From Mycobacteriales bacterium (GTDB lineage Bacteria; Actinomycetota; Actinomycetes; Mycobacteriales; SCTD01), in NCBI GenBank assembly GCA_030447385.1, contig JAUJOY010000004.1:229150-293149 (forward strand): a stretch of DNA of 64,000 bases, given 5' to 3'. Positions within the stretch are counted from its first letter, which is position 1. The number at the start of each line of letters is the position of its first letter. Shown one piece after another: positions 11,787-24,425 of the stretch. Position numbers and translations under genes: made by a program. A model generated the notes under the pieces. That model was not told the origin of the DNA and made no database searches. It saw nothing but the letters and a program-made list of their open reading frames with translations.

Positions 11787-12410
11787 GTGACCCCGCCCAC
11801 CTGCCCCCGGTGCGGTGCGGACCTGCGACCGCCGAGCCTGATGTCCAGCACCTGGGACTGCGAGCGGCACGGGCCGGTGGCTCCGCTGCACGTCCTCAGC
11901 CGGGTCAGCCCGGACGTCGTGGCCCAGGTGGCCGCGCGCAGCGGGGTTCCGCTGTGGACGCCGTGGCCGCTGCTGCCCGGGTGGACGGTGACCGGGCTCG
12001 CGCAGGCCGGCGACGAGCGTGCGCCCAGCCGGGCAGCCGTGCTGGCGCTGTCCGGCCCCTGCCCGCTCGGCGGGCCGGCCGACCTGCTGCTGGTGGCCGA
12101 GGAGCCGGGCGTGGGACTCGGCGCGCGCTACGCCGGCATCGAGTCGCTCGACCCGGGGGACGTCGTCGCGGGACCGCCCGAGGCCAAGGTCGAGGCTGCC
12201 GGGCACCCCACGGCGCTGTGGCGCAGCGACAGCGCCGGCGACCGGGTGGCCTTCGTCGGGGAGGCGCTCGGGATCTGGCTGTGGGCGGTCCTCTGGCCGC
12301 CGGCCGCGGAGCTGGTGCTGCTCGAGCACGTGATCCTGCACGACCTGCGTGCCGGTGGTCCTGCCCTGCTGGACCTGCCGGTGGGCGCCCCCAGCAGCAG
12401 GCTGGCCTGA
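11787..12410 (+). CDS. DUF6758-like conserved actinobacterial protein
   Basis: A 207-residue protein, GTG 11787. It starts with a zinc-ribbon-like pair, CPRCGADLRPP, and a later CERHG, then PLWTPWPLLPGWTVTGLAQAGD and LLLVAEEPGVGLGARYAG. I recall this arrangement as DUF6758, found widely in actinobacteria next to a PHP-domain gene, as here. A hydrophobic patch near the end (ALGIWLWAVLWPPAAELVLLE) may be buried or membrane-associated. Function is unknown. Its stop overlaps the likely CTG start of the PHP gene. Confidence 0.7.
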   Translation: MTPPTCPRCGADLRPPSLMSSTWDCERHGPVAPLHVLSRVSPDVVAQVAARSGVPLWTPWPLLPGWTVTGLAQAGDERAPSRAAVLALSGPCPLGGPADLLLVAEEPGVGLGARYAGIESLDPGDVVAGPPEAKVEAAGHPTALWRSDSAGDRVAFVGEALGIWLWAVLWPPAAELVLLEHVILHDLRAGGPALLDLPVGAPSSRLA

Positions 12411-13270
12411 CCCCGACCCGCCGCGCCCGCCGGATCGACCTGCACACGCACTCAACCGCGTCCGACGGCACGACGCCGCCGGCGCAGCTCGTCCGGCAGG
12501 CAGCGGCCGCCGGGTTGGACGTGCTCGCCATCACCGACCACGACACGACCTCGGGCTGGGCGGCAGCAGCATCCGCGCTCCCGCCCGGGCTGTCACTGGT
12601 GCGCGGCGCCGAGATCTCCTGCGTACGCGGCGGCATCAGCCTGCATCTGCTCGCCTACCTGTTCGACCCCGCGGAGCCGGTCCTGGCCGGCGCTCTGGCG
12701 CGGCTGCGCGCGGCCAGGGCGGGCCGGGCGCGGCGCATGGCCGAGCTGCTGGAGGCCGGCGGCACGGGGGTGACCTGGGAGCGGGTGCAGCAGCTGGCGG
12801 AGGGGACCGTGGGCCGCCCGCACCTGGCGAGCGCGCTGATCGAGCAGGGGCACGTCGGCTCGATGGCGGAGGCGTTCACGCCGGAGTGGATCGGCTCCGG
12901 CGGCCGCTTCTGGGTGCCCAAGGCCGAGCTCGACGCGGTGGAGGCGGTACGGCTGGTGGTCGGCGCCGGGGGCGTCGCGGTGTTCGCGCACCCCGCCGCC
13001 GCGGCCCGCGGCCCGACCGTGGGGGACGACGTCGTCGCCGAGCTGGCGCGGGCGGGGCTGGCCGGCCTCGAGGTGGAGCATCCCGACCACGACGACCGCG
13101 CCCGCGTACGCCTCCACGCGCTGGCAGGGGAGCTGGAACTGCTCGTGACGGGCAGCAGCGACTTCCACGGCGGCCGCAAGCCGGTGGCGCTGGGGGAGCA
13201 CGTGACGGCGGAGCCCGCCTACGAGCGGCTGGTGGCCGGCGCCTCCGGCGTGCCGGTGCTCGCCGCCTGA
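12407..13270 (+). CDS. PHP-domain metal-dependent phosphoesterase
   Basis: The frame contains a full PHP metal site: DLHTHSTASDG (HxH), AITDHDT, GAEISC, VFAHPAAA and TGSSDFHG. These are typical of TrpH/YciV-type phosphoesterases that act on nucleotides or small phosphate esters. No ATG, GTG or TTG occurs in frame between the end of DUF6758 and HTH, so the first usable codon appears to be CTG 12407, overlapping the TGA of the upstream gene (CTGA). That gives 287 residues beginning (M)TPTRRARRIDLHTHS, the expected N-terminus. Any ATG/GTG/TTG start inside the frame further downstream would remove the first metal ligands. Confidence 0.88.
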   Translation: MTPTRRARRIDLHTHSTASDGTTPPAQLVRQAAAAGLDVLAITDHDTTSGWAAAASALPPGLSLVRGAEISCVRGGISLHLLAYLFDPAEPVLAGALARLRAARAGRARRMAELLEAGGTGVTWERVQQLAEGTVGRPHLASALIEQGHVGSMAEAFTPEWIGSGGRFWVPKAELDAVEAVRLVVGAGGVAVFAHPAAAARGPTVGDDVVAELARAGLAGLEVEHPDHDDRARVRLHALAGELELLVTGSSDFHGGRKPVALGEHVTAEPAYERLVAGASGVPVLAA

Positions 13271-22658: not shown

Positions 22659-24425
22659 CTACTCCGGCGCGGCGGCTGTCGTCGTCCCGCCGTCGGCGTC
22701 ACCGGCGTTGCGCCCGCGGCCCCGCCCTCCTCGTCGTCGCCGGGGACGCGCAGCAGCGTCGCCGGCCTCACCGCCGGTACCGGCCGCGTCCGTTGCGGGC
22801 GCGGTCGTGGCGGCGCCGCTGTCGCCCGGCTCGCCGGCGCTTCCCCCACCGCGCGTACGCCGGCGGGTGCTCCCGCTGCGCTTGGGCAGCGCGGGCGCGT
22901 CATCCGCACCGGCCCCTGCACCGCCGCCGTCGCGACCGCCGTCGTGGGCGGCCCTGCGTACGCCGGATCGCCCGCCGCTCCGGCCGGCGTCACGGCCACC
23001 GGAAGCCGCCGGCCGCCGCCGGCCGGTCTCGCCGAGGTCCTCGACCTGCTCGGCGTCGAGCCCCGCCCGGACCCGCGCCGAACGCGGCAGCGTGCCCTTC
23101 GTGCCGATCGGGATGTCCTGGTCGGCGAACAGGTGGGGGGAGGAGCTGTAGGTCTCGACCGGCTCCGGGAAGGTCAGGTCGAGCGCCTTGTTGATCAGCC
23201 CCCACTTGGGGCTGTCGTCCCAGTCGACGAACGTGACGGCCACGCCGTTGGCACCCGCCCGGCCCGTGCGCCCGATGCGGTGCAGGAAGACCTTCTCGTC
23301 CTCCGGGCACTGGTAGTTGACGACGTGCGTCACGTCCTGCACGTCGATGCCGCGGGCCGCGACGTCGGTGGCGACGAGCACGTCGATCTTGCCGGAGCGA
23401 AACGCGCGCAGCGCCTGCTCGCGGGCGCCCTGCCCGAGGTCGCCGTGCACGGCGGCGGCGGCGAAGCCGCGGTCGACCAGGTCGGCGGCGACCTTGTCGC
23501 AGGTGCGCTTGGTGCGGCAGAACACCATCGTCAGTCCGCGACCCTCGGACTGCAGGATGCGGGCGAGGATCTCGCCCTTGTCCATCGAGTGCGCCCGGTA
23601 GACGAAGATCCGGGTGTTGGGAACGGTGCGGTTCTCGTCCGGCTCCTCGGCCCGGATGTGGGTCGGCTGCTTCATGAAGCGGCGCGCCATCGCCACCACC
23701 GGACCGGGCATGGTGGCTGAGAAGAGCATCGTCTGCCGCTCGCCGTGGATCTGCTCGAGGATCCGCTCGACGTCGGGCAGGAAGCCGAGGTCGAGCATCT
23801 CGTCGGCCTCGTCGAGGACGAGGACGCCCACGGCGTTGAGGTTGAGGTGCCCCTGACGGGCGAGGTCGAGCAGGCGGCCGGGGGTGCCCACGACCACGTC
23901 GACACCCTTGCGCAGCGTCTCGACCTGGGGCTCGAAGGCGCGCCCGCCGTAGATGGTGACGACGCGGATGCTGCGTACGCTGCCGGCGTTCTCGAGGTCC
24001 TTGGCCACCTGGACCGCGAGCTCGCGGGTGGGGACGACCACGAGTGCCTGGGGGATCCCCGTGGCGCCCTCGGCCTTGCTCGCGACGCGCTGCAGGAGCG
24101 GGATGCCGAAGCCCAGCGTCTTGCCGGTGCCGGTGCGGGCCTGGCCGATGAGGTCGTGGCCCGAGAGCGCGATCGGCAGGGTCATCGTCTGGATGGCGAA
24201 CGGGCTGGAGATACCCATCTTCGTGAGCGCCTCGACGGTCTCGGGGCGCGCTCCGAGGGCGGCGAAGCCGTTGTCCGTGGCGCTGTCGGCGGTGGTGCTG
24301 GTGGGGGTCAGGGGGCTGCCTCTCGTGCGGTCGCGTCGACCGACGACAGGAGCGGGCTCGCAGCGGACAGGTCTTGCTCTGCCGAAGCAGGGGGACCGGC
24401 CGGCGCGCCGCGGGAACACGGTCAA
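22659..24425 (-). CDS. DEAD-box RNA helicase (RhlE-like) with Arg/Gly-rich tail
   Basis: The helicase core has the Q motif (GISSPFAIQTMTLPIALSGHD), motif I ARTGTGKT, DEAD as VLDEADEMLDLGF, SAT, and C-terminal motifs ATDVAARGIDVQDVTHVVNY and HRIGRTGRAG. A tail of about 140 residues is rich in Arg, Gly and Asp and is likely RNA-binding. It corresponds in position to M. tuberculosis Rv3211 (rhlE). The start is doubtful: the track uses TTG 24425 and GTG 24419 is also possible, but the first 38 residues are Arg/Pro-rich and unlike the family. CTG 24311, preceded by GAGAGG, would give the expected (M)TPTSTTADSATDNGFAALG. Confidence 0.9.
   Translation of the reverse strand: MTVFPRRAGRSPCFGRARPVRCEPAPVVGRRDRTRGSPLTPTSTTADSATDNGFAALGARPETVEALTKMGISSPFAIQTMTLPIALSGHDLIGQARTGTGKTLGFGIPLLQRVASKAEGATGIPQALVVVPTRELAVQVAKDLENAGSVRSIRVVTIYGGRAFEPQVETLRKGVDVVVGTPGRLLDLARQGHLNLNAVGVLVLDEADEMLDLGFLPDVERILEQIHGERQTMLFSATMPGPVVAMARRFMKQPTHIRAEEPDENRTVPNTRIFVYRAHSMDKGEILARILQSEGRGLTMVFCRTKRTCDKVAADLVDRGFAAAAVHGDLGQGAREQALRAFRSGKIDVLVATDVAARGIDVQDVTHVVNYQCPEDEKVFLHRIGRTGRAGANGVAVTFVDWDDSPKWGLINKALDLTFPEPVETYSSSPHLFADQDIPIGTKGTLPRSARVRAGLDAEQVEDLGETGRRRPAASGGRDAGRSGGRSGVRRAAHDGGRDGGGAGAGADDAPALPKRSGSTRRRTRGGGSAGEPGDSGAATTAPATDAAGTGGEAGDAAARPRRRRGGRGRGRNAGDADGGTTTAAAPE

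Follow-up and report, generated by a model that had tools for sequence, protein, structure and literature searches.

Where does translation begin in the PHP-domain phosphoesterase gene that follows DUF6758? Gene finders usually offer only ATG, GTG and TTG as starts. In the window, by which we mean the whole 64,000 nt stretch of DNA analysed here, the PHP gene has no usable codon of these three kinds, GTG 12281 aside. The original prediction held that none lies in frame between the end of DUF6758 and the HTH metal motif and proposed a CTG at 12407 instead. For the interval from CTG 12407 to the motif the absence is true. It does not extend further upstream, where GTG 12281–12283, the nearest standard codon 5′ of the CTG, lies in frame 42 codons away inside DUF6758. 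Upstream of the CTG the PHP frame runs on for 228 codons without a stop. From 12407 it reads CTG ACC CCG ACC CGC CGC GCC CGC CGG ATC GAC CTG CAC ACG CAC, which is translated (M)TPTRRARRIDLHTH, and a protein started at the CTG would have the N-terminal stretch (M)TPTRRARRIDLHTHSTASDG. The predicted overlap with the upstream stop codon is likewise read in the sequence. CTG 12407–12409 and TGA 12408–12410 form CTGA 12407–12410, and the DUF6758-PHP pair has the NTGA stop/start overlap of coupled genes. A start-blind codon-usage model, trained on the sampled genomes, puts the onset of PHP coding one codon ahead of the CTG. We consider this CTG the probable start of the PHP gene, read as Met (Table 1).

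Table 1. Positions of the genes, start codons and ribosome binding site discussed in the text (window coordinates unless a contig is given)
Feature	Position	Strand	Details	Evidence
Proposed CTG start codon, PHP gene	12407..12409	+		sequence, coding-signal onset, CTG-only starts in relatives
PHP-domain phosphoesterase gene	12407..13270	+	287 aa if CTG-started	Pfam PF02811, NF041577, PDB 3e0f/2yb1/9etk/7ug9
DUF6758 gene	11787..12410	+	GTG start, TGA stop 12408-12410	Pfam PF20544, ORF list
First in-frame TTG downstream of the PHP CTG	12515..12517	+	a start here would delete the metal motif	behind metal motif
DEAD-box RNA helicase gene	22659..24311	-	550 aa, CTG to stop	Pfam DEAD and Helicase_C, translation
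CTG start codon, helicase gene	24309..24311	-		same-site SD-led CTG class-wide; ATG/GTG there in others
Shine-Dalgarno-like GAGAGG	24319..24324	-	7 nt before helicase CTG	gagagg/ggaagg/aagagg conserved in relatives
ispE	G000 contig C11:68850		SD-led CTG start	

The identity of both genes was examined with curated models. DUF6758 matches PF20544 at 257 bits (E 1.3e-76). The PHP protein matches PF02811 at 34 bits, above the cut-off of 26.4, and has the HxH...D metal motif when aligned to 3e0f and 2yb1. It scored 168 bits with NF041577 (3′,5′-nucleoside bisphosphate phosphatase; cut-off 400 bits) and 149 bits with NF047791 (RNase RNM; cut-off 375 bits), so that it stays under both curated cut-offs. 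The protein shares its domain and metal motif with CV1693 (2yb1) and RNase AM (7ug9), which correspond to the best curated models matched, but it falls far short of the equivalog thresholds. Judged by sequence, it is nearest to the 3′,5′-nucleoside bisphosphate phosphatase and RNase AM models, below their cut-offs. Homologues of known structure have their N-terminus only a few residues from the metal motif.

How much weight the CTGA overlap can carry depends on its background frequency. The sample comprised 300 kb of contig C11 and 400 kb of contig C1 of the window genome and stretches of ten relatives. C precedes TGA in 330/564 gene ends with this stop codon. With C so common before TGA, chance alone should give most gene pairs in such a frame relation a CTGA overlap, and the overlap by itself says little about a CTG start. 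GTGA was found at 75 overlaps, ATGA at 44, CTGA at 35 and TTGA at 2. The PHP gene of the window is the sole case among the 35 CTGA overlaps without an ATG, GTG or TTG within ~20–25 codons. Since the other 34/35 have a standard start nearby, reinitiation at CTGA as a common habit of high-GC genomes is unsupported. CTG was also not enriched behind Shine-Dalgarno (SD) sequences (0.66× expectation, 750 genes), which rules it out as a general fourth start codon in these genomes. Two other searches were discarded. An expectation-maximisation search that allowed any codon as start returned spurious codons such as CCC and GCT. Flagging start-less genes by homology only gave lists dominated by antisense frames and alignments that entered GC-rich spacers. 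A filtered form of the homology-based list, covering ~466 sampled genes with a comparable relative, left two genes as clear cases, PHP (four genomes) and ispE (the window genome). A 700 kb scan of the window genome added the DEAD-box helicase and one weaker case behind ftsZ. The latter, at contig C1:359630, lacks a standard start over 44 codons and has a probable CTG start shortly after a stop, with no clear SD; its product is presumably a laccase/YfiH-like protein, encoded directly behind an apparent ftsZ. At contig C11:71459 an ABC-F-type ATPase gene shows a coding signal without a start and an apparent N-terminal frameshift, due to assembly error or decay.

The CTG start is graded as probable from the relatives, not from the CTGA itself. 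The window genome (G000; 3.4 Mb, 13 contigs) belongs to a family of uncultured Frankiales-like bacteria. A search for ATG or GTG at the same place in relatives, which the original prediction had named as a check, was positive, and most have GTG near this position. In 22 family genomes with a readable start region the PHP start codons are GTG (14), CTG (5), TTG (2) and ATG (1), in most genomes at codon −6 relative to the D of DLHTH. Many relatives carry GTG at this codon −6, as a standard start at the same site, and CTG is the minority state within the PHP family. Five genomes of the G236 genus have GTG at the PHP start. In G005 and G011 a stop lies 21–24 codons upstream, and the only candidates are an ATC just before D and a CTG 6 codons before D that follows AGGAG by 5–9 nt. 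The CTG of G013 is three codons before D, behind GAGGAGG, and is the only candidate after a close upstream stop. G018 has an SD-led CTG as well. Outside the family, CTG was found in three Actinoplanes and in one Frankia MAG, where it is preceded by AAGGAG. It lies within a CTGA overlap in A. lutulentus and Actinoplanes sp. DH11, and in the latter, where a stop lies 21 codons upstream, no other start candidate follows that stop. The CTG of A. rectilineatus is one base after the upstream TGA, and an in-frame ATG at codon −24 is an alternative. Four of these genomes (G005, G011, G013 and DH11) have no usable standard PHP start whatever. In a tree built from 59 PHP proteins, 7 changes are required to explain the CTG state. 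Among the DUF6758 loci parsed in relatives there were no CTG starts, only ATG and GTG. Comparison with relatives makes initiation at CTG well supported for the PHP gene at the level of sequence. There is no good SD before CTG 12407, so in the window genome the CTG start rests on coupling and on the relatives.

The type of leader is associated with the start codon. Loci were assigned by eye as leaderless or leadered from a −10-like TAnnnT just upstream of the start, and with this split all 10/10 leaderless PHP loci of the family have ATG or GTG. The other 12 have CTG (5), TTG (2) or GTG (5) (Fisher p = 0.005 vs leaderless), and CTG and TTG are confined to loci with an SD or an overlap. This agrees with mycobacterial reporters, in which leaderless mRNAs were started by ATG and GTG only (PMC4633059). 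In the same work CTG with an SD was essentially inactive in M. smegmatis (0.03%), which counts against the CTG reading unless these bacteria or genes differ. From the missing alternatives, the position of the codon, its recurrence, the SD sequences and the exclusion from leaderless loci, we infer that initiation does occur at the PHP CTG.

Non-standard starts at other genes bear on whether this lineage uses them. An SD-led CTG begins ispE in 11/22 family genomes; some of these offer a GTG further in as a second candidate, and CTG is the sole candidate in G000, G005 and G008. Leaderless family genomes have ATG or GTG at the homologous ispE site (p = 0.003). The ispE start of G012 is probably ATC. 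As a positive control, infC, which encodes IF3, starts with ATC behind a strong SD in 19/19 readable family genomes; the ATC start of infC is known for Streptomyces (PMC5472188). Because ispE and the helicase have CTG in the same genomes and infC has ATC, the lineage does use non-standard starts.

The DEAD-box helicase gene of the same window is a stronger case of a CTG start than the PHP gene. Its family start codons are CTG (14), ATC (1), ATT (1), TTG (1) and ATG (3). By a by-eye tally, in which some rows have other start candidates, an SD-led CTG occupies the corresponding site in ~60 genomes from ~27 families of the actinobacterial class. Eight genomes (G306, G311, G324, G332, G337, G339, G346 and G357) have no standard codon between a stop, 8–26 codons upstream of the conserved domain, and the domain itself. 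Within one genus the same site behind the same SD holds CTG in G332 and ATG in G305 and G349. The sequence evidence for a CTG start of the helicase gene is very strong, and CTG is its usual state over much of the class. In several families (L337, L347, L353 and other class-level loci) the N-terminus is CTG followed by TTF or STF, without the extension seen elsewhere. The leader of the helicase gene (24312–24400, minus strand) is conserved in the family as tgcgagcccgctcctg.cgtcggtcg.cgcgac and is possibly a regulatory 5′ UTR. PHP, ispE and the helicase all have homologous sites that alternate between ATG or GTG and CTG.

The most serious rival concerns the purpose of the CTG, not its position: the start would be used and would drift once it is SD-led or coupled, with no regulation by IF3. 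CTG and TTG do occur in leadered or overlapping loci only, and PHP starts vary widely across relatives; tolerance of CTG without function is possible at the PHP gene. However, no such drift to CTG is seen at other SD-led genes, and GUG changed to CUG at just 1/5,080 ancestral starts (PMC5622118). Helicase codons swap among CTG, ATC and ATT, as though a weak start were being selected. Because weak codons replace one another there and CTG is so widespread, drift is less likely for the helicase. Overall we regard purposeless drift as a real possibility that we are inclined to doubt.

The remaining rivals place the start elsewhere. Translation from GTG 12281 inside DUF6758 would use the nearest standard codon in an open frame and would give PHP a 42-residue N-terminal extension. 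This extension, however, is the A/R/G/P-rich product of out-of-frame translation, and the codon model sees coding from the CTG onward only. Many relatives have in-frame stops 6–24 codons before the motif that forbid such an extension, and solved homologues start within a few residues of it. We consider this start very unlikely. A start at ATC 12434..12436 (+), one codon before the D of DLHTH, would use a codon that is a real start in the family, as infC shows, and homologues begin very near that residue. In the window, though, no SD precedes the ATC, which doubles as the codon for the conserved Ile of the first strand. Where relatives have CTG only, their SD sits 5–9 nt before it, a spacing that misfits ATC, and the GTG at codon −6 of relatives puts the protein start upstream. 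Initiation at this ATC is highly improbable. An assembly error or decay, in which a standard start was lost to an unseen indel or the PHP gene is untranslated, gains some credit from the window resting on one genome that also holds the frameshifted-looking ABC-F gene, but DUF6758 has the family's usual C-terminus, the PHP frame is intact with 61–76% identity to family relatives and CTG recurs independently in other assemblies, so we give this explanation very little credence.

With CTG 12407 as the preferred start, the following course of events can be proposed. Most relatives have a PHP gene with a GTG start, often on a probably leaderless mRNA. The lineage of the window would have lost the spacer and the leaderless start, leaving DUF6758 and PHP with their CTGA overlap. 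After terminating at the TGA, a ribosome could move by a single base and start again at the CTG, with no strong SD needed, and the PHP protein would begin with fMet from this CTG. Reinitiation at CTGA is plausible, and PHP translation would then be coupled to that of DUF6758. In sister genomes with a 5′ leader, a good SD serves the CTG instead. The geometry is identical to that of ATGA and GTGA overlapping pairs; the difference is the use of CTG as the reinitiating codon. A few genes, namely PHP, ispE and the DEAD-box helicase, would tolerate or even favour CTG, probably because the low output of a weak start could be limited by IF3, as for infC and sigR. At PHP such a start would keep the enzyme scarce and, on the model of infC, sigR (PMC5472188) and RepFIB (PMC11983097), might bring it under IF3.

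Known systems offer partial parallels. The ATT or ATC start of infC is, like the CTG cases, a conserved non-standard codon behind a good SD, and IF3 limits such starts. However, infC is autoregulated and deeply conserved, whereas the PHP CTG is found in some lineages only and its connection with IF3 is by analogy. Streptomyces sigR, likewise actinobacterial, has a non-standard start, belongs to a translationally coupled pair and is repressed by IF3 (PMC5472188). It differs in that sigR starts with GTC, is the first gene of its pair and had its start shown experimentally; the proposed CTG of PHP belongs to the second gene and draws its support from comparison. In the rep gene of RepFIB, CTG with a good SD keeps expression low, and the gene is often misannotated at a downstream GTG (PMC11983097). 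Unlike PHP, rep is an enterobacterial plasmid gene, and its start was shown by N-terminal analysis and mutation (PMC11983097). Non-standard starts are already known, and PHP, ispE and the helicase are new members. In a literature search of partial coverage, neither a CTG start of a DEAD-box helicase from actinobacteria nor a repeated CTG start at the PHP gene turned up.

Annotated CTG starts have been quoted at 20 of ~85,000 bacterial genes (PMC11983097), and substitution to CUG at 2/61,358 ancestral AUG and 1/5,080 ancestral GUG starts (PMC5622118). Given this rarity in surveys, specialists would not expect a CTG that recurs at one gene and is class-wide at another. If these starts are real, the N-termini of many database entries are wrong, and the purpose of non-standard starts becomes testable in culturable actinobacteria. 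We suggest, as a tentative idea that we think rather unlikely, that actinobacteria have a regulon of weak non-standard starts (CTG, sometimes ATC or ATT) under IF3, with the class-wide CTG helicase as its core and extended here to ispE and PHP. Such a regulon would couple the turnover of RNA, or the maturation of rRNA, to the supply of initiation complexes and their fidelity.
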